From Desulfarculus sp. (GTDB taxonomy: Bacteria > Desulfobacterota > Desulfarculia > Desulfarculales > Desulfarculaceae), in NCBI GenBank assembly GCA_016218705.1, contig JACRDC010000038.1, positions 1 through 64,000 of the forward strand: 64,000 nt of DNA. The letters run 5' to 3'. This document shows, piece by piece, positions 33,637-62,650 of this stretch. The notes beneath the pieces were generated by a model. It was not told where the DNA came from and did not search any database. It worked only from the letters and a program-made list of their open reading frames with translations. The translations under genes and the position numbers were made by a program. Positions within the stretch are counted from its first letter, which is position 1. Every line of letters starts with the position of its first letter.

Positions 33637-33653
33637 TTGCTCCCTCCCCGTTC

Positions 33654-34682
33654 CTAAGCGTTCATGTCGTTGACGACCTTGCGGACGTCAATGTTCACCG
33701 GGCAGAGCTGCACGCAGCGGCCGCAGCCCACGCAGCCTATCTCGCCGCCGCGCTTGACCGGGATGTACTTGAACTTGTGCATGAAGCGCTGACGCACCCG
33801 GTCCTTCTTGGTGCCCCGGGGGTTGTGCCCGGTGCCGTGCATGGTGAACAGCCAGCTCATGCAGTAGTCCCAGTTGCGCACCCGGCGCCCCGCCTCGCCC
33901 TGGGTCTCGTCCTGGATGTCGAAGCAGTGGCAGGTGGGGCAGCAGAAGGTGCAGGTGCCGCAGTTGAGGCAGCTCTCCATGACCCGGTCCCACAGGGGCG
34001 CGTCGTAGAGCTCCATGACCTCGCGGGCGTTGACCTTGTCCATGGCCACCCCGCCCTTTATCTTGGCCTCGGCGGCCTTCTTGAGCTCGGCGGCCTGGCC
34101 CTCGTCGCCAGCGGCGGCGGCGGGCAGGTCCTTGACCAGGGCCTCGCCCTTCTCCGTCAGGGCCTTGGCCAGGAAGTGATCGCCCAGGTCCACCAGCAGC
34201 ACGTCCAGGCCCGTCTCGCCGTGGGGGTTGCTACCCACCGTGGTGCAGAAGCAGGTGGGGCAGGGGTCGTTGCAGGCCAGGCCGATGAGCGCGGTCTTCT
34301 CGCGCTTGTCGCGCCAGTACAGGTCGTTGGTCATCTCGTCCTGCACGAAGATCAGGTCCAGCACCTGGAAGGCCTTGGCGTCGCAGGGACGAATGTTCAA
34401 GAGCACCCGCGGCCGGGAAAGCGGGGCCTCGGCCTGCATGATCATGCCCTGGGGGTCGCCCTGGACATTCTTGAAGCGCATCATGCACTCGGTCTGGGGG
34501 AAGAAGAAGTCCTTGGGGCTCATCTCGGTGTTGGAGAACTCCCACAGCGCCTCGGCCGCCGTGGCCACCGGGCCCCAGCCCACCTTGCCGTCCTTCATGA
34601 CCGGCGCGAACAAATCCTGATCGCGGCAAAGGCCCTGCAGGAAGGCGTCCACCTTGTCTTTGGCCAATATCTTTTGCGACAT
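33654..34682 (-). CDS. AsrA/FlxC-like 4Fe-4S protein, Sec operon copy
   Basis: 342 aa. Related to anaerobic sulfite reductase subunit A and the hydrogenase/Flx ferredoxin subunits. The middle of the protein has RPCDAKAFQVLD and a PCPTCFCTTVG block; the C-terminal third has two 4Fe-4S motifs (CLNCGTCTFCCPTCHCFD and CVGCGRCVQLCPVNID). It would carry electrons between the NAD(P)H-binding subunit and HdrA/MvhD. It lies 17 nt from the FAD gene and 12 nt from the preceding gene. About 90% identical by eye to 59396-60424. Confidence 0.86.
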   Translation of the reverse strand: MSQKILAKDKVDAFLQGLCRDQDLFAPVMKDGKVGWGPVATAAEALWEFSNTEMSPKDFFFPQTECMMRFKNVQGDPQGMIMQAEAPLSRPRVLLNIRPCDAKAFQVLDLIFVQDEMTNDLYWRDKREKTALIGLACNDPCPTCFCTTVGSNPHGETGLDVLLVDLGDHFLAKALTEKGEALVKDLPAAAAGDEGQAAELKKAAEAKIKGGVAMDKVNAREVMELYDAPLWDRVMESCLNCGTCTFCCPTCHCFDIQDETQGEAGRRVRNWDYCMSWLFTMHGTGHNPRGTKKDRVRQRFMHKFKYIPVKRGGEIGCVGCGRCVQLCPVNIDVRKVVNDMNA

Positions 34683-34694
34683 GGTCCGCCTTCC

Positions 34695-35645
34695 CTACTT
34701 GATGAAGTCCTGGGGGTCGTTGGGCCTGAACAGCGACATGGGCGGCGTGGCGCCGATCTCCATGCCGGGGCGATAGCCGTAGAGCTCCCGGATGTCTTTT
34801 TCGATCTTGCTGGTGAGCCGCCGCATCTTGATGCCCTGGGGGCAGGCCGATTCGCAGGCCCCGCAGTCGGTGCAGCGGCCCGCGCAGTGGAAGGCCCGCA
34901 GGATGTGGAAGGTGGCCACGTCGGCCTCGTCCTGGGTCTTGCCGCACCACTGGGGCTGGGCCTCGTCCACGAAGCAGACGTGGCAGTAGCACAGGGGGCA
35001 GGCGTCGCGGCAGGCGTAGCAGCGGATGCAGTCCTTGAGCGTCTCTTGCAGCTCGGCCCAGCGCTCGGCGGGAATGAGCTTCTCCCAGGGCGCGGCCACG
35101 TTGTCAATATTGCCGCCGTGCCCCTCGGGGCCTTTCTCGCCGATCATCTCGTCGCTGATGACCGGGTTGCGCTGCACGCAGGTCAGGCAGTTGGAGCGTA
35201 GAAATTTCTTACGTTCGATGCGCTGCTCGAAGCCCTGGCCCTTGACCAAAAGATGCTCCGGCTCCTCGATCACCTCGGTGATGGTCTTGCCCGGGAACAG
35301 GGCCTGCACCTTGCGCCGGTCCACCATGCCAGGGCTGTTGACGCCGATGACGTAGAGGTCCTCGCGCTTGAACTGGTTCTCGTTGATCAGGTTGACCAGG
35401 TTGCGGCTGACGCAGCCCTGGGCCACCACGGCCATGCGCCCCGGGCGGCGGATGGTGTACAGGGCCAGGTTGTTGCAGCAGAAGCTGGTCCAGGTGAGGT
35501 TCTCGGCCTCCTCGGGCGTGTAGGCGAAGTAGGGGTACTCGCGCATGGGCACGCTGCCCTTGGCATAGCCGATCACCACGTCAACCTTGCCCTCGCTCAA
35601 GAGCCTTTTGGCCGCCTCGCGGATTTTCTGTGCGATAGCTTCCAT
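34695..35645 (-). CDS. 4Fe-4S electron-transfer subunit of Hdr/Flx complex (FrhB/FlxB-like), Sec operon copy
   Basis: 316 aa, rich in cysteine. The N-terminal half (VIGYAKGS, FCCNNLALYTIRR, VVAQGCVSRNLVNLI, LRSNCLTCVQRNP) resembles the coenzyme F420 hydrogenase beta / CoB-CoM reductase accessory family. The C-terminal part has CIRCYACRDACPLCYCHVCF and CTDCGACESACPQGIK, two 4Fe-4S sites. Its ATG overlaps the mvhD stop (TGATG). About 93-94% identical by eye to the plus-strand copy at 58433-59383, clearly more than the flanking hdrA and hdrD-like genes. Confidence 0.85.
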   Translation of the reverse strand: MEAIAQKIREAAKRLLSEGKVDVVIGYAKGSVPMREYPYFAYTPEEAENLTWTSFCCNNLALYTIRRPGRMAVVAQGCVSRNLVNLINENQFKREDLYVIGVNSPGMVDRRKVQALFPGKTITEVIEEPEHLLVKGQGFEQRIERKKFLRSNCLTCVQRNPVISDEMIGEKGPEGHGGNIDNVAAPWEKLIPAERWAELQETLKDCIRCYACRDACPLCYCHVCFVDEAQPQWCGKTQDEADVATFHILRAFHCAGRCTDCGACESACPQGIKMRRLTSKIEKDIRELYGYRPGMEIGATPPMSLFRPNDPQDFIK

Positions 35646-36085
35646 CAGGCCACCTTCCTGATGTCTTTGATCATGTGCTGGGCCGGCCCCAGGGCCTTGA
35701 CGGCCTCGGTGACCGCGGCCACGGTCTTTTGGAACTTCTCGGCCTCGGCCGAGGAGATCCAGGAGAAGTGCAGACGGCCGGGCTCTATGCCCACGTACTC
35801 CAGCAGGTTTTTCAGGACGGCGAACCGCCGCCGGGCGAACATGTTGCCAGCTATATAGTGGCAGTCGCCCGGGTGTCAGCCGGAGACCCAGACGCCGTCA
35901 ACCCCCTTGCGGAAGGCGGCCAGGATGAACTTGGGGCTCATGCGGCCGGTGCAGGGGATGCGGATGACCTGGATGTTGGGCGGATACTGCAACCGGCTCA
36001 CGCCGGCCAGGTCCGCGGCTCCATAGGAGCACCAGTTGCACAGGAAGGCCGCTATGCGCGGCGAGAACTCTGCGTTGTCACTCAT
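35645..36085 (-). CDS. mvhD: Selenocysteine-containing MvhD/FlxD-type [2Fe-2S] protein (Sec70)
   Basis: 146 aa read through an in-frame UGA at 35878-35876. The translation VWVSG[14 protein letters not shown] aligns residue for residue with [17 protein letters not shown] of the plus-strand copy (57996-58433). MvhD links hydrogenase, formate dehydrogenase or Flx modules to HdrA through a 2Fe-2S cluster; its cysteines appear in [12 protein letters not shown] and the Sec-x4-C pair. Sec-containing MvhD/FrhD proteins are known in methanogens (VhuD). It lies 51 nt after hdrA and overlaps the next gene by one base. Confidence 0.9.
35831..35878 (-). promoter_or_regulatory. Candidate bacterial SECIS element for Sec70
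   Basis: Three bases after the UGA, CCGGGCGA pairs with UCGCCCGG (8-bp lower stem) and inside it UGCCA pairs with UGGCA around a 9-nt loop. The structure starts closer to the UGA and its loop is AU-rich, less typical than the hairpins after Sec62 and Sec232. Confidence 0.5.
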
Positions 36086-36136
36086 GGGCTTACCCCGTAG
36101 TATCGTTTAGGGTCAGGCTCGTCGGCCGCGATCGGC

Positions 36137-39100
36137 CTAGAGCATGGCCTCGATTTGCGCCATGACGTCCTGGGTGGTGAAGCCGCGCAGGTTGGGAGCA
36201 CCCGAGCGGCAGGAGGCCACGCAGGTGCCGCAGCCCTTGCACAAGGCCTCGTTGACCACGGCCAGGCCCTTGTCGTCCTGGGTGATGGCCTGGTAGGGGC
36301 AGACCGTCCAGCACACCCCGCAGCCCACGCACTTCCTCTGGTCTATGAAAGCCACCGTGCCCGACAGCGACATCTCGGCGCTGCTTAGCACCGTCACCGC
36401 CCGGCTCACCGCGGCTTGCGCCTGGGCCACCGCCTCCTCCAGCGGCTTGGGATAGTGGGCCAGGCCGGCCATGAACACGCCGTCGGTGGCAAAATCCACG
36501 GGCCTGAGCTTCTGGTGGGCCTCCAGGAACCAGCCGTCCTCGTCAATGGGCACCTTGAACATCTGGGCCAGCTCGGTGTTCTTGTGGCTGACGATGGCGC
36601 TGGCCAGGCCCACCAGGTCGGCCTCGATGAGCAGGTCGCGGCCCAGGATGTGGTCGCGCACCGTAACCATGAGCTTGCCGCCGTCCTTCTTCACCACCGG
36701 CTTCTGGTTGACATCGTAGCGCACGAAGAGCACGCCCTTGGCGCGGGCTTCCTTATAAAGAAGCTCGCGCTCGGCGAAGGTGCGCATGTCGCGGTAGATG
36801 ATGACCACCTGGCAGTCGGGGTTGTGCTCCTTGAGGTGCAGGGCGCTCTCCACCGAGTGGGTGCAGCAGACCTTGGAGCAGTAGGGACGCTCGGGCTCGC
36901 GGCTGCCCACGCACTGGATGAAGACCGCGCTGTTCACCTTCTTGGCGTCCAGCTCGCCGTTCATCATGGCCGCGTCAATCTGCAGGTGGGTCATGACCCG
37001 GGGGTCCTGGCCGTACAGGTACTCGGTGGGCTGGTACTCCTGCCCGCCGATGGCGATGATGGCCCCGCCGTGCTCCACCACCGTCTCGCCAGCCGGGCCG
37101 GCCAGGGTGGTCTTGAAGTTGCCCACGAAGCCTTCAACGTTTTTGATGTTGCTGGCCAGGTGGGCGGTGATGAGCGGGTTGTCCATCACCTGCTTGGCCA
37201 GGCCGTCCAGGTAGGGCTGGACCTCCTCGCCCTGGGCGGTGATCCTGAGCAGCCGGGCGTTGCCGCCCAACTGGGCGTCGCGCTCCACCAGGTGGGTGGT
37301 GAAGCCCTGGCCGGCCAGCTCCAGGGCCGCGTTCATGCCGGCCACGCCGCCGCCGATGACCATGGCCGCCGGGTTGACCGACAGCTTGACCTCGTTCAAG
37401 GGTTGCAGCAGGGCCACCTTGGCCACGGCCATGCGCACCAGGTCCTTGGCCTTCTCGGTGGCCTTCTCCGGCTCGGCCGAGTGCACCCAGGAATCCTGGT
37501 TGCGGATGTTGGCCATGTCGAAGAGGTATTTGTTGAGCCCCGCCGCCTGCAGGGTCTCCTGGAACAGGGGCTCGTGGGTGCGCGGCGTGCAGGCCGCCAC
37601 CACCACGCGGTTGAGGCCCTTCTCCTTGATGGTCTGGGCCATCTTGTCCTGGGTGTCCTGGGAGCAGGAGAACAGGTTGTTCTCCACGAACTCCACGAAG
37701 GGCAGCGTCTTGGCGTACTCGGCCACGGCCTTGACATCCACCACGCTGGCGATGTTGATGCCGCAGGAGCAGACGAACACGCCCACCTTGGGCACCTCGC
37801 CGCGCACGTCCACGGCCTGGGGCACCTCCTTGGTCTGGGCCAAGGTGCCGCGGGCGGCGCTGAGCTTGCCCGCCGCCGCGCAGGCCGCGGCGGACGCCTC
37901 CACCACCGACAGGGGGATGTCCTTGGGGCCGGCCAGGGCGCCGCAGACATACACGCCGGGCCGGTTGCTGGCCACCGGGGCGAAAGAGGTGGTTTTGACG
38001 AACTGGGTGGACTTGAGCTCGATGCCCAGCTTGCTCGCCAACTCCACGCTGGTCTTGGCCACCTCCAGGCCGTGGGAGAGCACCACCATGTCGAAGACCT
38101 CGGTCTTGGCCTGGCCGTCCTCGGTGGCGTACTCGATCATCAGCGACTTGTCGGCCTGCTCGGTGATGGTGTGGATGCGGCTACGGATGAAGCGCACGCC
38201 CGAGCGCTTGGCGTTCTCGTAGTACTTCTCGAAGTCCTTGCCAAAGGTGCGCATGTCCATGAAGAAGATGGCCGCGTCCAGCCCGGAGTGGCTGTGCTCC
38301 TTGGCTATCACCGCTTCCTTGATGGCGTACATGCAGCAGACGGATGAGCAGTAGGGGTGGTCGCAGGTATTGACGTCGCGGCTGCCCACGCACTGCAACC
38401 AGGCGATCTTCTTGGGCTCCTTTTCGTCGCTGGGGCGCACCAGATGGCCCATCCAGGGACCGCTGGCCGCCAGGATGCGCTCCATCTCCAGGGCCGTGAC
38501 CACGTTCTTATACTTGGAGTAGGAGTACTGGACATAGGCGCTGGGGTCGAAGGGCTTAAAGCCCGCCGAGATGATGACCGAGCCCACCTGCACGTCGCGG
38601 GTGGTCTCCTTGTCCTCGTAGTTGATGGCGCCGGTGGGGCACTGCTTCTCGCAGTTGCCGCACTTGCCCTTGGTCAGCTTGATGCACTTGGCGGGGTCAA
38701 TGCCGTATTTCAGCGGCACCGCCTGGGCGTAGCGCACGTAGATGGCCTTGCGCTTGTCCAGGCCCTCGTTGTAGTCGTTGCTGACCTTGGCGGGGCATTT
38801 GGGGGTGCAGGCGCCGCAGGCGATGCACTTGCTGGTGTCCACGTAGCGGGGGTGGGTTACCACCTTGACCGTGAAGTCGCCCTCCTCGCCCGTGATGTCC
38901 GCCACCTCGGAGAGGGTCAGGAGCTCGATGTTGATGTGCCGGCCGACCTCGACCAGCTTGGGGGAGATGATTCACATGGCACAGTCATTGGTGGGGAAGG
39001 TCTTGTCCAACTGGGACATGACTCCACCAATGGCCGGCCCTTTTTCAACCATGTAGACATAGTAGCCGGAGTTGGCCAGGTCCAGGGCGGCTTGCATGCC

Positions 39101-39157
39101 TGCAATGCCACCCCCGACCACCATCACCGCGCCAGTCACCTTCTTGCCTGCTGCCAT
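36137..39157 (-). CDS. hdrA: Selenocysteine-containing HdrA-like flavoprotein with two FAD modules (Sec62)
   Basis: 1006 aa read through an in-frame UGA at 38974-38972. FPTNDCAM[11 protein letters not shown] matches FPTNDCSMCILSPKLVE of the copy at 54931-57966. Order: FAD loop [12 protein letters not shown] (11-22), the DCxM-Sec cluster motif, an inserted ferredoxin ([11 protein letters not shown] 111-121; second site about 158-174), the classical HdrA N-domain ([12 protein letters not shown], about 455), a second FAD loop [12 protein letters not shown] and a C-terminal 2x4Fe-4S ferredoxin. It is longer than classical HdrA (about 650 aa). HdrA performs flavin-based electron bifurcation; Sec at this motif is known in methanogen HdrA. 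First gene of the Sec operon. Confidence 0.92.
38938..38974 (-). promoter_or_regulatory. Candidate bacterial SECIS element for Sec62
   Basis: UGA, then 14 nt, then GCUGGUCG-AGGU-CGGCCGGC: an 8-bp stem (two G-U pairs) closing an AGGU tetraloop. The AGGU loop is the same core seen in the E. coli fdhF SECIS. In the Cys paralog the matching stretch has lost the AGGU loop. Confidence 0.75.
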
Positions 39158-39198
39158 GGGCGCTACCTCGCGCTGGGTGTGGGGGGAGCAAACAAACG

Positions 39199-39236
39199 CA
39201 AATCACCTATTTTCCAAGGATAACCTAGGTGATTTG
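39199..39236. promoter_or_regulatory. 11-bp inverted repeat in the leader of the Sec operon
   Basis: CAAATCACCTA (39199-39209) and TAGGTGATTTG (39226-39236) are perfect inverted copies 16 bp apart, about 40-80 nt upstream of the hdrA start and just downstream of the likely promoter. It may be an operator or, in RNA, a leader hairpin. Nothing like it was seen before the Cys operon. Confidence 0.6.
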
Positions 39237-41002: not shown

Positions 41003-41062
41003 ATGCGACTGTTTTTTGGCTTTACCTGAACTCCATCCTTGGAATCTACCCGGGTTAGGTAG
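41003..41062 (+). CDS. Leader ORF 1: MRLFFGFT-UGA-10 codons-stop, upstream of fdhA
   Basis: ATG 41003, eight codons, UGA at 41027-41029, then ten further in-frame codons to TAG at 41060-41062. If the UGA is read as Sec the peptide has 19 residues and ends STRVR. Its twin at 54133 encodes the same first eight residues with only synonymous third-base changes, has the same total length and ends STQVR. AAGG lies nine bases before the ATG. No function is known for such a peptide; a regulatory leader is inferred. Confidence 0.65.
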
Positions 41063-44067: not shown

Positions 44068-44190
44068 ATGGCCACAAATTACGGATTCACCTGAGTGCCC
44101 CGGACTCTGATGCTACCCGGGCACGGTAGAAGGAGAACGCCGCAGCCGCCGCCGGCCGAGGAACGGGCCATGGCCGCCAAGCTCGTCTAG
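44068..44190 (+). CDS. Leader ORF 3: MATNYGFT-UGA, divergent member, upstream of hdrA-mvhD
   Basis: ATG 44068, eight codons ending GFT as in the other leaders, UGA at 44092-44094. If the UGA is read through, the frame stays open to TAG at 44188-44190 rather than closing in the hairpin. The first five residues differ from MRLFF. The ribosome-binding site is weak. Leader position, GFT-UGA ending and hairpin support homology with leaders 1 and 2. Confidence 0.45.
44092..44129 (+). promoter_or_regulatory. SECIS-like hairpin in the third-hdrA leader
   Basis: UGA, 18 nt, then CUACC-CGGGCAC-GGUAG (5-bp stem, GGG in the loop). hdrA starts 287 nt beyond; the DNA between holds a second strong stem at about 44192-44258 (CCTCCCGG pairing with CCGGGAGG around CTCGGCAT/ATGCCGAG) that could be part of the same control region. 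Confidence 0.5.
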
Positions 44191-51676: not shown

Positions 51677-53287
51677 ATGGGCGCCGCCTTCCCGGCTGGG
51701 CTGGTATTTCCCATCAACGCCCTGCCCGCCTGCCAGACGGTGGAGCAGGGCATAGACACGCTGTGTCACGACGCCGAGCTCAAGGCCCAGGCCGTGCTGC
51801 GCTATTACCAGCAGGCGCCGGCGGACCTGCTCTTCTGCTTCAGCGACATCGCCATCCAGGCCGAGGCCATGGGCGCCCGGCTGGCCTATTCGCCGGCGAG
51901 CCTGCCCGTGGTAGTGGCCCCTGCCCCAAATGTGTTGCTGCCCCGGGCGGCCCAGGTGGGGCGCATGGGGGTCAACGCCCAGGTCCTAGCCCGGCTGGAC
52001 AGCCAATTCCCGGGCCGCTTGCGGGCGGCCATGGTCTATGGCCCCTTCACCGTGGCCGGCCAGGTGGCTGGCGAGCAGGAGGTGCTCAGGTCCACGGTGG
52101 AGCGGCCGGAGCTGGTGCATGCCCTCCTGGAAAAGACCCTGGCCCTGGCCCTGGACTATGCCCGCCTGCTCTTGGAAACCGGGGCCGAGGTGCTGTGGGT
52201 CTCCGACCCCCTGGCCTCCCTGCTGCCGCCTATAGGTTTCTGGGAATTCGCGGGGCAGTATTTGGCAAGGCTCTTGGAGGTGCACGCCGGCCCCACGGCC
52301 CTGCACATCTGCGGCGACACCTCGCCCATCATCGGACCCATGCTGCAAACCGGCGCCGACGGCCTCAGCCTTGACCAATGCCTGGACCTCTTGGCCCTTG
52401 AGGATGCCTTACCTCCAGAAGTGGCCATCATCGGCAACCTGGACCCGGTGGAGGTGCTGGAGTTGACCAGCCCCGAGGATGTGGCGGCCCAGACCAACGA
52501 ACTGGTGGAGGTCATGGGCCTACTGCCCAACTTCTGCTTGAGCAGCGGCTGCGCGCCACCGCCCACGGCCCCCCTGGCCAACATCGCCAGTTTTCTGGAG
52601 GCCGGCCGCGCCCGTTGGCGCCAGCTGGCCCCCCACGCCCAGGGCCTGCGCGACCTGGCGGCCACGGTGCACGCCGGCCAGCGCGGTAAGGTGCCGGCCC
52701 TGGTGTCCGGCCTGCTGGAGGCCGGGGCGTCTCCCTTGCTGGTCTTGAACTCGGGGCTTATGCGGGCCATCCGTAAGGGCAGCGCCCGCTACGAGGTCAA
52801 GCAGTGCCACCTGCCGGAGATACTGCTCATGGTGGATGCCTTTCACCAGGGCTTCCAGCAACTGGAGGGCCGGCTGGGACTGGCGGTGGACCGGCCGCCC
52901 CAGGTGGTGCTGGGCACCGTGAAGGGCGATGTGCACGAGATCGGCAAAAACCTGGTGCGCATCGTGCTGGAGACCCAGGGGGTCAAGGTCCTGGACCTGG
53001 GAGTCAACGTGGAGGGTCGGCGTTTCCTAGAGGCCTGCCAAAAGCAGGGGGTCAGGGTCCTGGGGCTTTCGGCCTTCACCACCGGCGCGCGCAGGGAGTT
53101 GAAAAAGGTGATCCAGCTGTTCCGGGAAACAGGCATGGAGGAGGTGGCCGTGGTGGTGGGAGGGGCGGCGGTCAACCAGCAGGTGGCGGCATCCGTGGGG
53201 GCTGATGGTTATGCCCGCGACGCCCTGGCCGCCGCCCGCCTGGTCAAGGGCATCCTGGCCAGGCAAGGCCGGGCCGGCCGTGGATAA
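51677..53287 (+). CDS. Corrinoid methyltransferase: MtaA/UroD-like domain fused to MtaC-like B12 domain
   Basis: 536 aa. Residues about 10-320 form a uroporphyrinogen-decarboxylase-like barrel with the zinc set of methylcobamide methyltransferases (His210-x-Cys212 in HICGD, Cys292 in SSGC). About 325-400 is a helical cap and about 405-530 a cobalamin-binding Rossmann domain with DVHEIGKN (His420 as the lower cobalt ligand) and VVVGGAAVNQQ. Usually methyltransferase and corrinoid protein are separate; here they are one chain. It should demethylate an imported substrate or pass methyl groups to another acceptor. It starts 4 nt after the binding-protein stop. Confidence 0.88.
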   Translation: MGAAFPAGLVFPINALPACQTVEQGIDTLCHDAELKAQAVLRYYQQAPADLLFCFSDIAIQAEAMGARLAYSPASLPVVVAPAPNVLLPRAAQVGRMGVNAQVLARLDSQFPGRLRAAMVYGPFTVAGQVAGEQEVLRSTVERPELVHALLEKTLALALDYARLLLETGAEVLWVSDPLASLLPPIGFWEFAGQYLARLLEVHAGPTALHICGDTSPIIGPMLQTGADGLSLDQCLDLLALEDALPPEVAIIGNLDPVEVLELTSPEDVAAQTNELVEVMGLLPNFCLSSGCAPPPTAPLANIASFLEAGRARWRQLAPHAQGLRDLAATVHAGQRGKVPALVSGLLEAGASPLLVLNSGLMRAIRKGSARYEVKQCHLPEILLMVDAFHQGFQQLEGRLGLAVDRPPQVVLGTVKGDVHEIGKNLVRIVLETQGVKVLDLGVNVEGRRFLEACQKQGVRVLGLSAFTTGARRELKKVIQLFRETGMEEVAVVVGGAAVNQQVAASVGADGYARDALAAARLVKGILARQGRAGRG

Positions 53288-53846
53288 AAGGCTTCTGCGC
53301 TACCTCCAAATCGCCAGCCCTTCCCTGGCCGAGCAGGAGGCCGGCCAGCTCTGGGACGAGGCCCAGGGCCTGGTGGACCTGGCCACCTGGCAGGACTGCC
53401 TGGATCTGCCCGACTTCTACCGGCGCTTTCATCCCTACGCGGCCAATAGCGCCGCCCTGGGCCGGCTGCTGGCCCCCTGCCGCCAGGTCCGCCTGTTGGT
53501 GGCCACGCTGGGTGACAGGTTGGAGCGGCGCGCTCGCGATTATCTGGACCAGCAAGAGGCCTTTCGCGGGTACGTCCTGGATCGCCTGGGCAGCTACCTG
53601 GTGGAGCAGCGCATGCGCGGTCTGGACCGCCAGGTGACCCTGGCGGCCCAGGTCGGGGGATGCAGCACCACCCGTCGCTACAGCCCCGGGTACAGGGATT
53701 TTGCCCTGGATGCCAACCGGGTCTTCGTGGAGCTGGCCTCGAGTGGCATTCCCGGGCTTGAGTTGGGCGAAGGCGGCCTGCTGCGCCCCGAGAAGACCAT
53801 CACCGCCCTCAAGGGGCTAACCCAGCATGCTGGGGACAAGCCATGA
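53280..53846 (+). CDS. MetH activation-domain-like protein
   Basis: 188 aa from GTG 53280, overlapping the methyltransferase stop by 8 nt. GCSTTRRYSPGYRDFALDANR near residue 125 is the SAM-binding signature of the cobalamin-dependent methionine synthase activation domain. As a free-standing protein next to a corrinoid methyltransferase it probably helps reductive reactivation of oxidised cob(II)alamin using SAM, a role filled by RamA in other systems. The upstream part of the frame is chance. Confidence 0.82.
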   Translation: MDKRLLRYLQIASPSLAEQEAGQLWDEAQGLVDLATWQDCLDLPDFYRRFHPYAANSAALGRLLAPCRQVRLLVATLGDRLERRARDYLDQQEAFRGYVLDRLGSYLVEQRMRGLDRQVTLAAQVGGCSTTRRYSPGYRDFALDANRVFVELASSGIPGLELGEGGLLRPEKTITALKGLTQHAGDKP

Positions 53847-54096: not shown

Positions 54097-54132
54097 GGCT
54101 GCGTCAAAGCACCCATGCATGAAGGCTTGTCC

Positions 54133-54192
54133 ATGCGCCTGTTCTTCGGCTTCACCTGAGTATCCCGCGCGAACTCTACCCAGGTTCGGTAG
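54133..54192 (+). CDS. Leader ORF 2: MRLFFGFT-UGA-10 codons-stop, upstream of the Cys operon
   Basis: ATG 54133, UGA at 54157-54159, TAG at 54190-54192. The first eight codons differ from leader 1 at four bases, all synonymous third positions (Arg, Phe, Phe, Phe), which indicates selection on the peptide. After the UGA five codons vary freely, then S-T-x-V-R-stop is shared. GAAGG lies seven bases before the ATG. Same length (19 residues with Sec) as leader 1. Confidence 0.68.
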
Positions 54193-54331: not shown

Positions 54332-54763
54332 ATGTCTGAAAACTTCGAGCCACGACTCTTGGCCTATTGCTGCCAGTGGTGTTCCTATGCCGCCGCCGAC
54401 CTGGCCGGCGCCATGCGGCTGCAATACCCCCCCAGCGTGCGCATCCTGCGGGTGCCCTGCACCGGGCGCACCGACATACTGCACATGCTGAGGCCCTTCG
54501 AGGACGGGGCCGACGGGGTGTTTCTGTCGGGATGCCTGCTGGACGACTGCCATTACAGGACCGGCAACTACAAGGCCACCAAGCGGGTGGCCTACGCCAA
54601 GCAGCTCCTAGCCCAAGCGGGCATCGATCCCGACCGCCTGGAGATGTACTACAACTCCTCGGCCATGGGCCCCCAGTTCGCCCAGACCTGCCGCGACTTC
54701 GTGGCACGCATCTGCGCTCTGGGACCGGTCTACGCCACTGAAAACAAGAGGGCCATAGCCTGA
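54332..54763 (+). CDS. mvhD: MvhD-type [2Fe-2S] protein, extra copy heading the Cys operon
   Basis: 143 aa. YCCQWCSYAAADLAGAMRLQ, RVPCTGRTD and FLSGCLLDDCHYRTGN are the MvhD cysteine motifs. It differs from the other MvhD copies (the second in this operon, 57996-58433, matches the Sec-operon one better), so it is an additional adaptor, perhaps for another donor such as a hydrogenase or formate dehydrogenase encoded elsewhere. GGGAGGAGG precedes the ATG. The tRNA gene begins 15 nt after its stop. Confidence 0.88.
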   Translation: MSENFEPRLLAYCCQWCSYAAADLAGAMRLQYPPSVRILRVPCTGRTDILHMLRPFEDGADGVFLSGCLLDDCHYRTGNYKATKRVAYAKQLLAQAGIDPDRLEMYYNSSAMGPQFAQTCRDFVARICALGPVYATENKRAIA

Positions 54764-54778
54764 TGGCTATCTCGCCAA

Positions 54779-54875
54779 GGCCGGTTATGGGAGCCGGGCT
54801 CCCCCCGGGCTGCAAACCCGGCGAGGCTGCCCTAGCGGGCATCCTGTTCGGTTCGACTCCGAAAACCGGCCTCCA
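54779..54875 (+). tRNA. tRNA-Sec-like tRNA with cysteine identity (anticodon GCA, U73)
   Basis: 97 nt. Acceptor GGCCGGTT/AACCGGCC is 8 bp; T stem TTCGG/CCGAA is 5 bp around TTCGACT, i.e. the 8+5 branch of bacterial tRNA-Sec. D stem GGGAGC/GCTCCC is 6 bp with a tiny loop, another Sec hallmark, and the variable arm is long (TGCCC-TAGC-GGGCA). Yet the anticodon loop CTGCAAA gives GCA (Cys) and the discriminator is T73 before CCA, both CysRS identity elements. It lies between mvhD and hdrA, co-directional, and is presumably cut from the operon mRNA. From memory, extra tRNA-Cys species mimicking tRNA-Sec have been reported in delta-proteobacteria. Confidence 0.85.
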
Positions 54876-54930: not shown

Positions 54931-57900
54931 ATGACTACCAAGGCGCGACAACAAGACCCCGTGGGGGCGGTAATGGTGGTGGGCGGCGGCGTGGCCGCCA
55001 TCCAGGCCTCCCTGGACCTAGCCGACACCGGCTACCTGGTCTACCTGGTGGAGAAGACCCCGGCCATCGGCGGGGCCATGTCTCAGTTGGACAAGACCTT
55101 CCCCACCAACGACTGCTCCATGTGCATCCTCTCCCCCAAGCTGGTGGAGTGCGGCCGCCATCCCAATATCCAGATTCTCACTCAGGCCGAGGTGCAAAGC
55201 ATCGAAGGCCAGGCCGGCGATTTCCGGGTCAAGCTCAAGCAGCAGGCCCGCTACATAAGCCTGGAAAAATGCATCGCCTGCGGGGCCTGCGCCGAAAAGT
55301 GCCCCAAGAAGGTGGATGACGAATTCAACCGCGGCCTGAACAAGCGCAAGGCCGCCTACGTCAAATACCCCCAGGCCGTGCCGCTGAAGTACACCATCGA
55401 CAAGGACAACTGCATCTATTTTCAGAAGGGCAAGTGCAAGGCCTGCGAAAAGATCTGCCCGGCCGGCGCCGTGGAGTTCGCCCAAGAGGACGCCCAGCTG
55501 GAGTTGAACGTGGGAGCGGTGATCGTGGCCGCCGGCTTCAGGCCCTATGACCCCTCTCCCTTTGCCCAGTATTCCTACAGCCGCTTCGCCAACGTGGTCA
55601 CGGCCCTGGAGTTCGAGCGCATCCTCTCGGCCAGCGGCCCCTGGATGGGGCATCTGGTGCGTCCGGGCGACGAGAAGGAGCCCCAGAAGATCGCTTGGTT
55701 GCAATGCGTGGGCTCCCGGGACATCAACAACTGCGACCACCCCTATTGCTCCAGCGTGTGCTGCATGTACGCCATCAAGGAAGCGGTGATCGCCAAGGAG
55801 CATTCCCACGGCGGCCTGGACGCCACCATCTTCTTCATGGACATGCGCACTTTTGGCAAGGACTTCGAGCGCACCTACGAGGGCGCCAAGGAGCGCGGCG
55901 TGCGCTTCGTGCGCAGCCGGGTGCACTCCATCAGCGAGCTGCCGGACAAATCCCTGCGTCTGGAATACGCCACCGAGGAGGGCGAGGCCCGGACCGAGGA
56001 CTTCGACATGGTGGTGCTCTCCCAGGGCCTGGAGGTGGACCCGGCCACGGCCCAGCTCTGCCAGGACCTGGGGGTGGAGTTGGCCAGCACCCAGTTCGTC
56101 AAGAGCGGCTCCTTCAGCCCGGTGGCCACCAGCCGTGAGGGCGTCTACGTCTGCGGCGCCCTGGCCGGTCCCAAGGACATCCCCCTGTCGGTGATGGAGG
56201 CCAGTGCGGCGGCCTGCGCCGCCGGCGGCAACCTGACCGCCGCCCGGGGCAGCCTGGTCAGCCTGCCCGAGATCACCCCCCAGCGCGACGTCAAGGGCGA
56301 GAGCCCCCAGGTGGGCGTCTTCGTCTGCTCCTGCGGCATCAACATCGCCGGCGTGGTGGACGTCAAGGCGGTGATGGATTACGCCGCCACCCTGCCGGGC
56401 GTGGCCTACGTGGAGAACAATCTCTTCACCTGCTCCCAGGACACCCAGGACAAGATGGCCCAGGTCATCAAGGACCAGGGGCTCAACCGCATCGTGGTGG
56501 CGGCCTGTAGCCCGCGCACCCACGAGCCTTTGTTCCAGGAGACCCTCAAGGCCGCCGGCCTGAACAAGTACCTCTTCGACCTGGCCAACATCCGCAACCA
56601 GGATTCCTGGGTGCACGCCAATGAGCCCGAGAAGGCCACCGACAAGGCCAAGGACTTGGTGCGCATGGCCGTGGCCAAGGCCAGCCTGCTGGAGCCCCTA
56701 AGCGAGGCCAAGCTCTCCATCCTTCCCAAGGCCATGGTCATCGGCGGTGGCCTCAGCGGTCTCAACGCCGCCCTGGAGCTGACCCGCCAGGGCTTTGAAA
56801 CCCACATGGTGGAGCGCGACGCCCAACTGGGCGGCAACGCGCGGCTCTTGCGGGTCACGGCCCAGGGCGAGGACGTGCAGGCCTATCTGGCCGAATTGAT
56901 CGCCAAGGCCCAGGCCGAACCCCTGCTCAAGCTGCACCTGGACACCGCCATCAAGGAGGTCAGCGGCTTCGTAGGCAACTTCAAGACCACCCTGGCCGGG
57001 CCGGCCGGCGAGGAGCTGATCGAGCACGGCGCGGCGGTGATCGCCACCGGGGCCGCCGAGCGCCGGCCCACCGAGTACCTGTACGGCCAGGACCCCCGGG
57101 TCATGACCCACCTGGAGCTGGACGCGGCCCTGCTCACCGGGGAGTTGACTCCCCAGAAGGTGGGCGGCGCGGTCTTCATTCAGTGCGTGGGCTCCCGGGA
57201 GCCCGAGCGCCCCTACTGCTCCAAGGTCTGCTGCACCCACACCGTGGAGAGCGCCATCCACCTCAAGGAGCACAACCCCGACTGCCGGGTGACCGTGTTC
57301 TACCGCGACATGCGCACCTTTGCCGAGCGCGAGCTGCTCTACAAGAAAGCCCGCGAACTGGGCGTGCTCTTCGTGCGTTACCACCTGGACAGCAAGCCCC
57401 AGGTCAGCCTCCAGGACGGGCGTCTGTTGGTCACGGCCCTGGACCCCATCCTGGGCCGCGAGATCGAGCTGGAGGCTGATCTGCTCTGTCTGGCCAGCGC
57501 CATCGTCAGCCACAAGGACGAGTCCCTGGCCCAGATGTTCAAGGTGCCCCTGGACCAGGACGGCTGGTTCCTGGAAGCCCACGTCAAGCTGCGTCCCGTG
57601 GATTTTGCCACCGACGGCGTGTTCATGGCCGGCCTGGCCCACTACCCCAAGCCCATCGAGGAGGCCATAGCCCAAGCCCAAGCAGCCGTGAGCCGCGCGG
57701 TGACGGTGCTGTCCAAAACAGAAATGTGGCTTTCGGGCACCGTGGCCTTCATCGATCCCAAGAAGTGCGTGGGCTGCGGCGTGTGCTGGGAGATATGTCC
57801 CTACCAGGCCATCAGCCCCGACGAGCACGGGCTGGCCGTGGCCAACGCGGCCCTGTGCAAGGGCTGCGGCACTTGCGTGGCCTCCTGCCGCTCGGGCGCC

Positions 57901-57966
57901 CCCAACCTCAAGGGTTTCAGCAACCAAGACGTCATGGCCCAGATCACGGCCATGCTCCAGGGCTAA
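54931..57966 (+). CDS. hdrA: HdrA-like flavoprotein with two FAD modules, Cys counterpart of the Sec protein
   Basis: 1011 aa, colinear with the Sec62 protein (about 75% identical by eye). FAD loop VMVVGGGVAAIQ, cluster motif NDCSMC with Cys65 in the Sec position and an additional Cys in LVECGRH where the Sec protein has Val. The inserted ferredoxin (CIACGACAEKC, CKACEKIC), HdrA N-domain ([12 protein letters not shown]), second FAD loop (AMVIGGGLSGLN) and C-terminal ferredoxin ([23 protein letters not shown]) are all intact. Site of flavin-based electron bifurcation. It starts 55 nt after the tRNA, with AAGGAG before the ATG. Confidence 0.93.
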   Translation: MTTKARQQDPVGAVMVVGGGVAAIQASLDLADTGYLVYLVEKTPAIGGAMSQLDKTFPTNDCSMCILSPKLVECGRHPNIQILTQAEVQSIEGQAGDFRVKLKQQARYISLEKCIACGACAEKCPKKVDDEFNRGLNKRKAAYVKYPQAVPLKYTIDKDNCIYFQKGKCKACEKICPAGAVEFAQEDAQLELNVGAVIVAAGFRPYDPSPFAQYSYSRFANVVTALEFERILSASGPWMGHLVRPGDEKEPQKIAWLQCVGSRDINNCDHPYCSSVCCMYAIKEAVIAKEHSHGGLDATIFFMDMRTFGKDFERTYEGAKERGVRFVRSRVHSISELPDKSLRLEYATEEGEARTEDFDMVVLSQGLEVDPATAQLCQDLGVELASTQFVKSGSFSPVATSREGVYVCGALAGPKDIPLSVMEASAAACAAGGNLTAARGSLVSLPEITPQRDVKGESPQVGVFVCSCGINIAGVVDVKAVMDYAATLPGVAYVENNLFTCSQDTQDKMAQVIKDQGLNRIVVAACSPRTHEPLFQETLKAAGLNKYLFDLANIRNQDSWVHANEPEKATDKAKDLVRMAVAKASLLEPLSEAKLSILPKAMVIGGGLSGLNAALELTRQGFETHMVERDAQLGGNARLLRVTAQGEDVQAYLAELIAKAQAEPLLKLHLDTAIKEVSGFVGNFKTTLAGPAGEELIEHGAAVIATGAAERRPTEYLYGQDPRVMTHLELDAALLTGELTPQKVGGAVFIQCVGSREPERPYCSKVCCTHTVESAIHLKEHNPDCRVTVFYRDMRTFAERELLYKKARELGVLFVRYHLDSKPQVSLQDGRLLVTALDPILGREIELEADLLCLASAIVSHKDESLAQMFKVPLDQDGWFLEAHVKLRPVDFATDGVFMAGLAHYPKPIEEAIAQAQAAVSRAVTVLSKTEMWLSGTVAFIDPKKCVGCGVCWEICPYQAISPDEHGLAVANAALCKGCGTCVASCRSGAPNLKGFSNQDVMAQITAMLQG

Positions 57967-57995
57967 AGCCCGGCAGCAAGCAAGGAGCGAAAGTA

Positions 57996-58433
57996 ATGAC
58001 CGAGGCGCAATTCGAGCCGCGCATCGCGGCCTTCTTCTGCAACTGGTGCACCTACGGCGGTGCCGATTTGGCCGGCGTCAGCCGGCTACAGTATCCCACC
58101 AACCTGCGCGCCATTCGCATACCCTGCACGGGGCGCATGAACCCCAACTTCATCATGCAGGCCTTCCGCCAGGGGGCCGATGGCGTGTGGGTGAGCGGCT
58201 GCCATCCCGGCGACTGCCACTATATCGCCGGCAATCTCTACGCCAGGCGCCGCTTCACGGTTTTCAAGAACCTCCTGGAGTACGCGGGCCTGGAGCCCGG
58301 GCGCCTGCACTTTTCATGGATATCCTCGGCCGAGGCCAGCAAATTCCAGCAAACCGTCATCGAGGTCACCGACGCGGTGCGAGCCCTGGGTCCTGCGCAG
58401 CACCTGATCAAAGACATCCGGAAGGTGGCCTGA
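57996..58433 (+). CDS. mvhD: MvhD/FlxD-type [2Fe-2S] protein, Cys counterpart
   Basis: 145 aa, about 80% identical by eye to the Sec70 protein. FFCNWCTYGGADLAG, RIPCTGR and VSGCHPGDCHY carry the cluster ligands; Cys replaces Sec in the last. ATG 57996 follows AAGGAG; upstream frame is chance. Its stop overlaps the next start as TGATG, exactly as in the Sec operon. Confidence 0.93.
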   Translation: MTEAQFEPRIAAFFCNWCTYGGADLAGVSRLQYPTNLRAIRIPCTGRMNPNFIMQAFRQGADGVWVSGCHPGDCHYIAGNLYARRRFTVFKNLLEYAGLEPGRLHFSWISSAEASKFQQTVIEVTDAVRALGPAQHLIKDIRKVA

Positions 58434-59383
58434 TGGAAGCTATCGCACAAAAGATCCGCGAGGCCGCCAAAAAGCTACTTAGCGAGGGCAAGGTGGACGT
58501 GGTGATCGGCTATGCCAAGGGCAGCGTGCCGATGCGCGAGTACCCCTACTTCGCCTACACGCCCGAGGAGGCCGAGAACCTCACCTGGTCGAGCTTCTGC
58601 TGCAACAACCTGGCGCTGTACACCATCCGCCGTCCTGGCCGGATGGCGGTGGTGGCGCAAGGCTGCGTGAGCCGCAACCTGGTGAACCTGATAAACGAGA
58701 ACCAGATCAAGCGCGAGAACCTCTATGTCATAGGGCTGAACAGCCCGGGCATGGTGGACCGGCGCAAGGTGCAGGCCCTGTTCCCGGGCAAGACCATCAC
58801 CGAGGTGATCGAGGAGCCCGAGCACCTCTTGGTCAAGGGCCAGGGCTTCGAGGAGCGCATCGAGCGCAAGAAGTTCCTGCGCTCCAACTGCCTGACCTGC
58901 GTGCAAAGGAACCCGGTGATCAGTGACGAGCTGATCGGCCAAGCCGGCCCCGAGGGTCACGGCGGCAACATCGACAACGTGGCCGCGCCCTGGGAGAAGC
59001 TCATCCCCGCCGAGCGCTGGGCCGAGATGCAGGAGACCTTCAAGGACTGCATCCGCTGCTACGCCTGCCGCGACGCCTGCCCCCTGTGCTACTGCTACGT
59101 GTGCTTCGTGGACGAGGCCCAGCCCCAGTGGTGCGCCAAGTCCCAGGACGAGGCCGACGTGATGACCTTCCACCTGCTCAGGGCTTTCCACTGCGCGGGC
59201 CGCTGCACCGACTGCGGCACCTGCGAGTCGGCCTGTCCGCAGGGCATCAAGATGCGCCGTCTGACCAGCAAGATCGAAAAGGACATCCGGGAGCTCTACG
59301 GCTACCGGCCGGGCATGGAGATCGGGGCCCAGCCGCCGATGTCACTGTTCAAGCCCAACGATCCCCAGGACTTCATCAAGTAG
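58433..59383 (+). CDS. 4Fe-4S electron-transfer subunit of Hdr/Flx complex (FrhB/FlxB-like), Cys operon copy
   Basis: 316 aa, the same length as the minus-strand copy and differing at only about 20 positions by eye. All cysteines are shared: FCCNN, GCVSRN, NCLTC, CIRCYACRDACPLCYC and CTDCGTCESACPQG. It probably passes electrons between the NAD(P)H module and HdrA. The start is fixed by overlap with the mvhD stop; the longer frame upstream is not used. Confidence 0.87.
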   Translation: MEAIAQKIREAAKKLLSEGKVDVVIGYAKGSVPMREYPYFAYTPEEAENLTWSSFCCNNLALYTIRRPGRMAVVAQGCVSRNLVNLINENQIKRENLYVIGLNSPGMVDRRKVQALFPGKTITEVIEEPEHLLVKGQGFEERIERKKFLRSNCLTCVQRNPVISDELIGQAGPEGHGGNIDNVAAPWEKLIPAERWAEMQETFKDCIRCYACRDACPLCYCYVCFVDEAQPQWCAKSQDEADVMTFHLLRAFHCAGRCTDCGTCESACPQGIKMRRLTSKIEKDIRELYGYRPGMEIGAQPPMSLFKPNDPQDFIK

Positions 59384-59395
59384 GAAGGCGCCACC

Positions 59396-60424
59396 ATGTC
59401 GCACAAGATATTGGCCAAAGACAAGCTGGATGCCTTCCTCCAGGGCCTTTGCCGCGATCAGGATTTGTTCGCGCCGGTCATGAAGGACGGCAAGGTGGGC
59501 TGGGCGCCGGTGACCACCGCCGCCGAGGCGCTGTGGGAGTTCTCCAACAGCGAGCTGAGCCCCAAGGACTTCTTCTTCCCCCAGACCGAATGCATGATGC
59601 GCTTCAAGAATGTCCAGGGCGATCCCCAGGGCATGATCATGCAAGCGGAACCCGCGCTGAATAAGCCGCGGGTGCTTCTTAACATCCGTCCCTGCGACGC
59701 CAAGGCCTTCCAGGTCCTGGACATGATCTTCGTGCAGGACGAGATGACCAACGACCTGTACTGGCGCGACAAGCGCGAGAAGACCACGCTCATAGGCCTG
59801 GCCTGCAACGACCCCTGCCCCACCTGCTTCTGCACCACGGTGGGCAGCAATCCCCACGGCACCACCGGCCTAGACGTGCTCTTGACCGACATCGGCGACA
59901 AGCTGGTGGCGGAATCCTTCACCGCCAAGGGCGAGGCTCTGCTCAAGGAGCTGCCCGAGGTAACCAGGCAGGACCTGTTCCAGGCCGGCGAACTCAAAAA
60001 AGCCGCCGAGGCCAAGATCACCAGCGGGGTGGCCGTGGACAAGATCAACGCGGCTACGGTGATGGAGCTCTACGACGCGCCCCTGTGGGACCGGGTCATG
60101 GAGAGCTGCCTGAACTGCGGCACCTGCACCTTCTGCTGCCCCACCTGCCACTGCTTCGACATCCAGGACGAGACCCAGGGCGAGGCGGGACGCAGGGTGC
60201 GCAACTGGGACTACTGCATGAGCTGGCTGTTCACCATGCACGGCACCGGGCACAACCCCCGGGGCACCAAGAAGGACCGGGTGCGCCAGCGCTTCATGCA
60301 CAAGTTCAAGTACATCCCGGTCAAGCGTGGCGGCGAGATAGGCTGCGTGGGCTGTGGCCGCTGCGTGCAGCTGTGCCCGGTTAACATCGACGTCCGCAAG
60401 GTCGTCAACGACATGAACGCTTAA
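59396..60424 (+). CDS. AsrA/FlxC-like 4Fe-4S protein, Cys operon copy
   Basis: 342 aa, the same length as its minus-strand twin. Shows RPCDAKAFQVLD, NDPCPTCFCTTVG, CLNCGTCTFCCPTCHC and CVGCGRCVQLCP. The most variable part between the twins is about residues 155-215 (a charged helical linker), while both ends are nearly identical. Ferredoxin-like relay of the complex. It starts 12 nt after the previous stop. Confidence 0.87.
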   Translation: MSHKILAKDKLDAFLQGLCRDQDLFAPVMKDGKVGWAPVTTAAEALWEFSNSELSPKDFFFPQTECMMRFKNVQGDPQGMIMQAEPALNKPRVLLNIRPCDAKAFQVLDMIFVQDEMTNDLYWRDKREKTTLIGLACNDPCPTCFCTTVGSNPHGTTGLDVLLTDIGDKLVAESFTAKGEALLKELPEVTRQDLFQAGELKKAAEAKITSGVAVDKINAATVMELYDAPLWDRVMESCLNCGTCTFCCPTCHCFDIQDETQGEAGRRVRNWDYCMSWLFTMHGTGHNPRGTKKDRVRQRFMHKFKYIPVKRGGEIGCVGCGRCVQLCPVNIDVRKVVNDMNA

Positions 60425-60441
60425 GAACGGGAAGGGATCAA

Positions 60442-61281
60442 ATGAGAAACACCTACATCCCCTACCCGGTGAGCATCAAAGAGGTTCGGGTGGAGACCGA
60501 GGACAAGCAGCTCAAGTCCTTCTGGCTCCAGTTCCTTAAAAATGAGGACGCCCAGGCCTTCAACTACAAGCCGGGCCAGTTCGCCGAGCTTAGCATAAGC
60601 GGCTACGGCGAGATACCCATCGGCATCGCCTCTAGCCCCACCGAGGGGCGCGACTTGTTGTTCACGGTCAACAAGGTGGGCTCGGTCAGCTCCCGGCTGC
60701 ACAACATGAAGGCCGGCGACATCATGGGCGTGCGCGGTCCCCTGGGCAACTGCTATCCGCTGAAGGAGGCCCAGGGCAAGAACATCGTCATCGTGGCCGG
60801 CGGCTTCGCCGTCACCACTCTGCGCTCCACCATGAACTGGCTGTTGCACCCCGACCACCGGGGCGACTACGGCGAGATCACCTTCATCTACGGCGCGCGC
60901 ACCCCGGGCATGCTGCTCTATACCGAGGAGTGGACCGCCTGGCAGCAGAGCGGCCAGGCCAAGGTCTGCGTCACCGTGGACCGCGAGGCCCCGGGATGGT
61001 CCGGCCTGGTGGGCTTCGTACCCACGGTCACCGGCGACGTGGCGCCCAAGCCCGACAACGCCATCGCGCTCATCTGCGGCCCGCCCATCATGATCAAGTT
61101 CACCCAGCCGGTCTTCGACAAGCTGGGCTGGCAGTCCGACCAGATCATCATGAGCCTGGAAAACCGCATGAAGTGCGGCATCGGCATCTGCGGCCGCTGC
61201 AACGTCGGCCCCGAGTACGTCTGCAAGGACGGCCCGGTCTTCACCAAAACGCAGCTGACATCGTTGCCACAGGAATATTAA
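60442..61281 (+). CDS. FAD/NAD(P)H-binding oxidoreductase subunit (FlxA/AsrB/HydG-like), Cys operon copy
   Basis: 279 aa, about 94% identical by eye to the minus-strand copy. FAD barrel, NAD(P) domain (VIVAGGFAVTT; LICGPPIMIK) and C-terminal 2Fe-2S stretch (CGIGICGRCNVGPEYVC). Likely NAD(P)H entry or exit point for HdrA bifurcation. It lies 17 nt after the AsrA-like gene; GGGAAGGGA precedes the ATG. Confidence 0.89.
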   Translation: MRNTYIPYPVSIKEVRVETEDKQLKSFWLQFLKNEDAQAFNYKPGQFAELSISGYGEIPIGIASSPTEGRDLLFTVNKVGSVSSRLHNMKAGDIMGVRGPLGNCYPLKEAQGKNIVIVAGGFAVTTLRSTMNWLLHPDHRGDYGEITFIYGARTPGMLLYTEEWTAWQQSGQAKVCVTVDREAPGWSGLVGFVPTVTGDVAPKPDNAIALICGPPIMIKFTQPVFDKLGWQSDQIIMSLENRMKCGIGICGRCNVGPEYVCKDGPVFTKTQLTSLPQEY

Positions 61282-61324
61282 TTACGGCCCACTCGCTTAA
61301 AGCGGCGATGCTAAGGAGGTCGAC

Positions 61325-62650
61325 ATGACTGAAGCCATACAGCCCAAGTCCCTGCCTGACGCGGCCCGGGAAAAGTTGGCCAATCTTAACCTTAACCTGT
61401 GCTTGACCTGCGGCACCTGCACCGGCGGTTGCCCAGCCACCGGTACCGAGCGCCTGAATGGCCTGGAAATCCGCAAGGTGTACCGCATGCTGGCCTACGG
61501 CATGATCGACGAAGTGGTCGCCTCCGACTTCCCCTGGGTATGCACCGGCTGCGGCCGTTGCGCGGCGGCCTGCCCCATGAACCTGGACACCCCAGCCATC
61601 ATGGGCTACATGAAACACCTGCGCCCCCGCGACAAGGTGCCTGGCATCCTGCACAAGGGCGTGGAACAGGTGCTGAAATCCGGCAACAACATGGGCGTGC
61701 CCCGGGATGACTATCTCATGACCATGGCCGACATGGGCAACGAGATGGCCGAGGATTGCTGCCCCGGCTTCTACGTGCCCGTGGACAAGCAAAACGCCGA
61801 CGTCATGTTTTTTCCCAACTCCAAGGAGGTCTTCAGCGACTTCGAGGACATGAAGTGGTGGTGGAAAATTTTCTACGCCGCCAAGGAGAACTGGACCATC
61901 CCTTCCAACAACTGGGAGGCCGTGGACTGGGGCCTTTTCACCGGCAACTATGAGGCCACGCGCATCCTGGCCCAGCGCAAGATCGACATGATGAAGGAGT
62001 TCAACGTCAAGCGCCTGATCATGCCCGACTGCGGCGGAGGCTCCTACGGTTGCCGCATGGGACTCAAGACCTGCCAGATGGACGACCCGAGCAACACCGT
62101 CAATTACGTCTACCTCTATGAATATCTGGTGGAGCTGATCAAGTCTGGGCGCATCAAGCTGGACAAGAGCGTCAACGCCGGCAAGGTCTTCACCTGGCAC
62201 GACTCCTGTAAGCACGGCCGCGAGCTGGAACGGCACTTCGGTCATGGCTACTACGAGGAGCCTCGCTGGATCCTGGAGCAGTGCGTGGACCAGTTCGTGG
62301 ACATGGAGCCCAACCGCTTGAACGGCTTCTGCTGCGGGGCCGGCGGCGGCAACTGGCCCATGCCCTACGAGAAGGAGTCGGCCTTCCACGGTCGCAAGAA
62401 GTACGAGTCCATCAAGAACAGCAAGGCCAACGTGGTGGTGTTGGGCTGCTCCAACTGCCACGATCAGATCATGAAGCGCTATCCCAAATTCTACCCGGAT
62501 TGCGACTACGAGGTGAAATACATCTGGGAGCTGGTGGCCGACAGCCTGGTCATCGAACCCTGGAGCGACGAGGAAGTGGAGCAGGCCCAGGCCCAGGCCG
62601 CAGCCCAGTGGGAACGCCTGGGCATCGATCCCGAGGCGGGCTATGAATAG
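61325..62650 (+). CDS. HdrD/DsrK-like CCG-domain Fe-S protein, Cys counterpart
   Basis: 441 aa. N-terminal 4Fe-4S motifs CLTCGTCTGGCP and CTGCGRCAAACP-like (CTGCGRCAAACPM region, about residues 78-90), then ECCPGFYV-like CC pair, MPDCGGGSYGC with Cys at the position of Sec232, and a complete CCG domain (HDSCKHGRE, FCCGAGGGNWPMP, GCSNCHDQ). Only about 45% identical by eye to the Sec232 protein, much less than the three genes before it. Probable disulfide-reducing or membrane-linked acceptor subunit of the complex. AAGGAGG precedes the ATG. Confidence 0.88.
   Translation: MTEAIQPKSLPDAAREKLANLNLNLCLTCGTCTGGCPATGTERLNGLEIRKVYRMLAYGMIDEVVASDFPWVCTGCGRCAAACPMNLDTPAIMGYMKHLRPRDKVPGILHKGVEQVLKSGNNMGVPRDDYLMTMADMGNEMAEDCCPGFYVPVDKQNADVMFFPNSKEVFSDFEDMKWWWKIFYAAKENWTIPSNNWEAVDWGLFTGNYEATRILAQRKIDMMKEFNVKRLIMPDCGGGSYGCRMGLKTCQMDDPSNTVNYVYLYEYLVELIKSGRIKLDKSVNAGKVFTWHDSCKHGRELERHFGHGYYEEPRWILEQCVDQFVDMEPNRLNGFCCGAGGGNWPMPYEKESAFHGRKKYESIKNSKANVVVLGCSNCHDQIMKRYPKFYPDCDYEVKYIWELVADSLVIEPWSDEEVEQAQAQAAAQWERLGIDPEAGYE

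Follow-up and report, generated by a model that had tools for sequence, protein, structure and literature searches.

A tRNA-Cys with a tRNA-Sec-like body in a Cys isoenzyme operon of Desulfarculus sp.: an 8/5 variant of selC* that probably belongs to a low-selenium programme

The analysed stretch of DNA (the window) comprises the first 64,000 nt of contig JACRDC010000038.1 of Desulfarculus sp. (assembly GCA_016218705.1, 4.2 Mb, 99% complete). A tRNA gene at 54779-54875 on the plus strand is part of an operon with the order FlpD-tRNA-HdrA-FlpD. The stop codon of the first FlpD/MvhD gene (54332-54763, PF02662) is located 15 nt upstream of the tRNA and the HdrA gene (54931-57966) 55 nt downstream, all in the plus orientation, confirming the position between mvhD and hdrA given in the sequence-only reading of this DNA. 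Given the short gaps and the common strand, the tRNA is almost certainly co-transcribed with FlpD and HdrA. On the same strand follow the second FlpD gene (57966-58433, start approximate, PF02662) and genes for Fe-S, oxidoreductase and HdrD-like proteins (58443-62650, start approximate). Upstream of the leader of this operon, the region 51677-53846 encodes two proteins, namely a URO-D/corrinoid fusion of the methyltransferase type (MtaA-like) and one of 213 aa without a family match.

A paralogous operon was detected by blastn and codon inspection on the minus strand of the window (31220-39217 at its widest, 32817-39217 as a feature). Positions 54964-61260 (+) and 39133-32817 (-) are 83.7% identical over 6.3 kb, and according to tblastn and blastn within the window the gene set at 58443-62650 parallels that of the minus-strand copy. 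In the latter, HdrA (36137-39217) and FlpD (35645-36085) contain in-frame UGA codons in the motifs NDCAMU and VSGU. The corresponding motifs of the plus-strand copy are NDCSMC and VSGC (UGC), and the first FlpD also has UGC at the VSGU position. Thus, the earlier designation of the plus-strand copy as a Cys operon holds. The hairpins following the Sec codons have folding energies of -14.0 (HdrA) and -21.2 kcal/mol (FlpD), as compared to -8.2 and -11.4 kcal/mol in the Cys copies. The two operons represent a recent Sec-to-Cys duplication in which the SECIS hairpins of the Cys copy have decayed, and this decay led us to reject the idea that SECIS elements are retained at its Cys codons for SelB delivery; delivery by SelB to SECIS-like sites within the Cys operon is therefore unlikely. 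In comparison to the Sec operon, only the Cys operon has the extra FlpD gene and the tRNA at its start. Several FlpD genes of the genome, one of them within the window, contain an in-frame TGA.

The tRNA was assigned by ARAGORN as tRNA-Cys (gca), and the Rfam model of bacterial tRNA-Sec (RF01852) matches it end to end at 54779-54871 with 56.7 bits (gathering threshold 47, E 8.2e-9). The minimum free energy fold is a full cloverleaf (z -2.8) with an 8-bp acceptor stem, a 6-bp D stem with a 3-nt loop, an anticodon stem, a 5-bp T stem and a variable arm of 8 bp with one internal mismatch; the 3' side of the branch comprises 13 nt, corresponding to the 8/5 class. Model match and fold bear out that the 8/5 branch, the 6-bp D stem and the long variable arm are features shared with bacterial tRNA-Sec. 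The marks of tRNA-Cys, recognized earlier in the sequence and in line with the ARAGORN assignment, are the anticodon GCA (54812-54814) and U73 (54872), which is followed by an encoded CCA (54873-54875). These replace the tRNA-Sec marks UCA and G73 (for SerRS), while the 7/5 branch, 4-bp D stem and short variable loop of canonical tRNA-Cys are absent. In view of the identity elements reviewed in PMC7609411, GCA, U73 and CCA would point to charging by CysRS. By sequence comparison, branch pairs 9 and 10 are U-A and U-A, and the G49-U65 wobble, which is retained in the tRNA-Sec of the same genome, is missing. This wobble bears on the acceptance of a tRNA by EF-Tu, and thus EF-Tu may accept the window tRNA.

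The window tRNA is an extra tRNA in a Sec-using bacterium. The same genome harbours a separate true tRNA-Sec(UCA) gene, to which the window tRNA is 52% identical, and a canonical tRNA-Cys with a 7/5 branch and a short variable loop, to which it is 36% identical. The latter was missed by a first pattern and found with a relaxed T-loop pattern, so that the window tRNA could be rejected as the sole tRNA-Cys of the genome. Likewise, it is no replacement of tRNA-Sec, since this genome and almost all named genomes with a relative have a separate UCA tRNA-Sec gene. The single full-length SelB gene is located on another contig and is of the canonical type: the protein is canonical at all 17 positions at which the SelB* proteins associated with selC* tRNAs (see below) depart. 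A specialised own SelB was therefore rejected, and no SelB* was found in the genome. Two CysRS-like genes are present: one is the CysRS of this genome (G000:C125:57173), and the second corresponds to a region (G000:C87:6531-7916) inside a 794-aa ORF away from the window tRNA, and long ORFs resembling it exist in several relatives. A Sec-type body with the sense anticodon GCA is reportedly also found in the Aeromonas-type tRNA-Sec, said to have been described by Mukai and colleagues in 2016 and to carry Sec; the window tRNA differs from it by U73, which points to CysRS.

The sequence-only reading had pointed to described tRNA-Cys species that mimic tRNA-Sec, and this was right. According to the account in PMC7609411, the selC* tRNA-Cys (Mukai et al. 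2017) has a Sec-like body, U73 and the anticodon GCA or UCA, and occurs in anaerobes including Desulfobacterota. Its hallmark, called the most striking feature there, is a modified 8/4 branch with a bulged A51a, and the same account gives SelB* (and CysRS*) beside selC* for Syntrophobacterales and Desulfobacterales only. Measured against this description, the window tRNA is similar in its Sec-like body, in U73 and GCA, and in being additional to a normal tRNA-Cys. In contrast, it has a plain 8/5 branch devoid of the bulged A51a, is not accompanied by an adjacent SelB* or CysRS*, and lies downstream of a UGA-containing leader within an operon of Cys isoenzymes. Because the 8/4 bulge is missing, we file it as a variant of selC* as described there rather than as a plain member.

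This leader, mentioned already in the sequence-only reading, does exist (54133-54192, plus strand) and heads the Cys operon. It contains a short ORF for MRLFFGFT (a further in-frame ATG is located upstream, at 54115), followed by a UGA (54157-54159) and a hairpin with the stem CUACC/GGUAG (54176-54192), which is accompanied by a conserved CCCRNG stretch. An in-frame UAG (54190-54192), ten codons past the UGA, lies at the foot of the hairpin. We named this element the GFT-U leader. It is present in three copies on the plus strand of the window, each ahead of the Cys isoform of a known selenoprotein: the second copy (MRLFFGFT-UGA, 41003-41062) precedes a Cys form of FdhA at 41222 (RVCHAPTVAG) and the third (MATNYGFT-UGA with slightly wider spacing, 44068-44129) a Cys form of HdrA at 44230. 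Of 395 genomes of the phylum, 24 contain the strict motif (no mismatch); a reversed control pattern gave two matches. In an alignment of 26 leaders, each of the five loop-proximal pairs is kept in 24 to 26 sequences, and all changes in them are one-sided; the pair adjoining them on the outer side varies on both sides and is kept in 19. Since the single leader at 54133-54192 folds no better than shuffled sequences, the support for the hairpin is comparative. No Rfam family matches this copy even at a relaxed threshold, nor any of the three copies at the gathering threshold in a window-wide search. The searched literature on prokaryotic selenoproteins does not mention such a leader; Mukai et al. 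2017 may hold part of it. The copies look like a selenium-sensing leader.

Elsewhere in Desulfobacterota the GFT-U leader precedes FlpD, HdrA, FdhA, a YedE-like gene, SelB* and selC* tRNAs. The YedE-like gene (putative selenium transporter family) follows a leader at position 1501 of locus L401 (genome G396). At another locus (L358 in G007), an orthologue of the upstream FlpD contains an in-frame TGA, and roughly 200 nt upstream of it a leader-like IGFP-UAA is found, in which UAA replaces UGA and the hairpin is kept.

In other families of Desulfobacterota, the leader is located about 140 to 400 nt upstream of selC* tRNAs. In the Desulfacinum relatives the order is leader, selC* tRNA (GCA), FlpD and SelB*, and this FlpD is an orthologue of the FlpD at 54332-54763 (49-65% identity). 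In three genomes (G159, G282 and G129) the leader is followed by a UCA tRNA with U73, and in the latter two SelB comes next. The GCA and UCA tRNAs under the same leader have nearly the same body and often occur with SelB*, and the combination of UCA with U73 would imply Cys at UGA. Adjacency of leader and selC* recurs in five families (f1, f54, f55, f76 and f95), and over genomes the two co-occur in five shared genomes (P 0.013); the link is thus strong in adjacency and weaker at the level of genomes. The strict motif was absent in the scanned stretch of the selC*-FlpD-SelB* loci of G363 and G380, and most selC*-type loci outside Desulfobacterota have no leader. The same leader stands directly ahead of selC* tRNAs with either anticodon, FlpD and SelB* are often present too, and an orthologous FlpD follows the tRNA in the Desulfacinum group. 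This shows that the link is not local chance, in agreement with what had been surmised for the placement of the window tRNA. In G397 (L371/L408), a selC*-type tRNA with UCA and A73 is located between the leader and SelB*; A73 is neither the Ser nor the Cys discriminator.

To collect relatives of the window tRNA, we searched by pattern for tRNAs that combine the anticodon GCA with a long variable arm, and then checked the arms of the matches. At least about 60 distinct relatives exist, according to record titles, in Desulfobacterota, Nitrospirota, Firmicutes, Actinobacteria, Chloroflexota and one planctomycete. Additional RF01852 matches in G013 and G043 proved to be ordinary Ser/Leu tRNAs and were rejected. 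Across phyla, the relatives share U73, GCA and CCA; U73 is partly a matter of selection in the scan of named genomes, which required TCCA, and the phylum scan, which made no such demand, still yielded members with U73, bar one of uncertain register. Among the 64 relatives listed, the 3' side of the branch has 13 nt (8/5) in 40, the window tRNA included, and 12 nt in 23, the latter class fitting, as judged from its length, the published 8/4 branch with a bulge. Among the matches listed, the closest tRNAs are 80% (G115) and 77% (G235) identical and belong to other families and different operons. In G115 the tRNA is located immediately 3' of an activase gene; at this locus (L220, G115:C38) and at two others (L112 and L227), selC* tRNAs adjoin genes for a double-cubane-cluster reductase and its activase.

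SelB is encoded in all 33 named genomes carrying a relative, as compared to 21.5% Sec users among sequenced bacteria (PMC5029168). Genes found near the relatives code for SelB, YedE, YedF, the LysR regulator of selenium metabolism NF040786, and the double-cubane reductase together with its activase. With queries drawn from other loci only, a selenium or FlpD/HdrA gene was found nearby at 28 of 48 true loci listed and at none of 71 decoy loci; the latter are pattern matches lacking a tRNA body and differ in taxa from the true set, so that the P value of this comparison is no more than a guide.

A fixed place of the tRNA in the operon with the Cys form of hdrA is not supported. In four genomes, including one of the same genus (G002; the others are G009, G064 and G100), this leader heads an FlpD-HdrA Cys operon whose junction lacks the tRNA, and our pattern scan found no such tRNA elsewhere in them. 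The absence of the tRNA from relatives with leader and Cys operon, named beforehand as a refuting observation, was thus found in part, in these four genomes. Since such relatives run leader and operon without it, the tRNA is an accessory, which was probably gained sideways.

What, then, could be the role of this tRNA? The sequence-only reading had listed SelB cargo, decoy, UGA suppressor and sensor of CysRS charging side by side, with no preference for any of them. Directly observed are the architecture of the tRNA, its identity elements, its place in the operon, the leader and a conserved association with selenium genes. On this basis we tentatively prefer the reading that it is an extra Sec-bodied tRNA-Cys, SelB-compatible, which serves at low selenium to bring Cys to SECIS-UGA codons. 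We infer that, when Sec-tRNA is scarce, the ribosome would stop at the UGA of the leader and the Cys operon would be expressed. Processing of the transcript would release the tRNA, CysRS would charge it with Cys, and its Sec-like body would allow entry into the SelB/SECIS pathway, with SelB as the carrier. Cys could then be inserted at those UGA codons of the remaining selenoprotein mRNAs that are programmed by a SECIS. Decoding of UGA would be near-cognate, with G34 opposite A, helped by SelB/SECIS tethering; tRNA-Cys(GCA) is known as a weak reader of UGA. With a GCA anticodon, ordinary UGA stops would be suppressed less than with UCA. The company of SelB, selenium genes, a Sec-codon leader and UCA sisters is an argument for a family that feeds Cys into the Sec pathway in times of selenium shortage. 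Several observations count against this reading: GCA is unable to pair fully with UGA, the own SelB keeps the residues changed in SelB* and no SelB* is present, SECIS is lost at the Cys codons of the operon itself, close relatives manage without the tRNA, and the missing G49-U65 wobble may allow acceptance by EF-Tu. In addition, canonical SelB discriminates strongly for Sec.

The chief rival, which we rank below SelB-dependent reading of UGA and regard as possible but rather doubtful, is a supplementary ordinary tRNA-Cys. Charged by CysRS and carried by EF-Tu, it would read UGU and UGC and provide extra Cys capacity for the Cys-rich Fe-S isoenzymes replacing selenoproteins, and its Sec-like body would reflect ancestry only. 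Indeed, GCA pairs perfectly with Cys codons, the gene sits among those of Cys-rich HdrA and FlpD proteins, relatives adjoin double-cubane reductase genes, SelB* is absent from the genome, and 8/4 and 9/3 tRNAs are said to function in E. coli translation, in the 2017 work of Mukai. However, a normal tRNA-Cys is already available, and this explanation leaves open why SelB is present in every genome checked with such a tRNA and why SelB* genes and UCA sisters are found under the same leader. Clearly less probable is that the tRNA is a passenger, gained sideways into the gap between flpD and hdrA and expressed without special use, or serving only as a processing site of the transcript. The empty junctions of relatives and the closest listed tRNAs in other families and operons are in line with this, but all stems and Cys marks are intact, and the same leader and FlpD subfamily beside selC* in the Desulfacinum group would be a strange coincidence. 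A decoy which, whether carrying Cys or not, would bind up SelA or SelB and thereby lower Sec insertion in selenium shortage is improbable as well: the 6-bp D stem is a recognition feature of SelA and the 8-bp acceptor a determinant for SelB (PMC7609411), and expression along with Cys isoforms would fit a shut-down of Sec insertion, but a decoy would not need the U73, GCA and CCA kept across phyla, and the SelB* partners suggest delivery.

A Sec-shaped tRNA-Cys is already known from selC*. What is new, as far as the searched literature shows, is that such a tRNA occurs in an 8/5 form within an operon of Cys isoenzymes and together with a UGA/hairpin leader that selC*-SelB* operons also have, although Mukai et al. 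2017 may already contain part of this. Together, the shared leader, the pair of Sec and Cys operons and the selenium neighbourhoods offer a concrete setting for the purpose of selC*, namely growth at low selenium, and the window tRNA is probably one component of a low-selenium programme. It is tempting to speculate, with still more reserve than for the preferred role of the tRNA itself, that Desulfobacterota have a programme for selenium shortage with selC* tRNAs among its outputs, in which the GFT-U leader with its UGA and SECIS-like hairpin would sense Sec-tRNA and switch on Cys isoenzymes, SelB*, selenium uptake by YedE and a Sec-shaped tRNA delivering Cys to Sec sites. If true, Sec versus Cys decoding would be switched by a Sec-reading leader, which would represent a response to a nutrient at the level of the genetic code.
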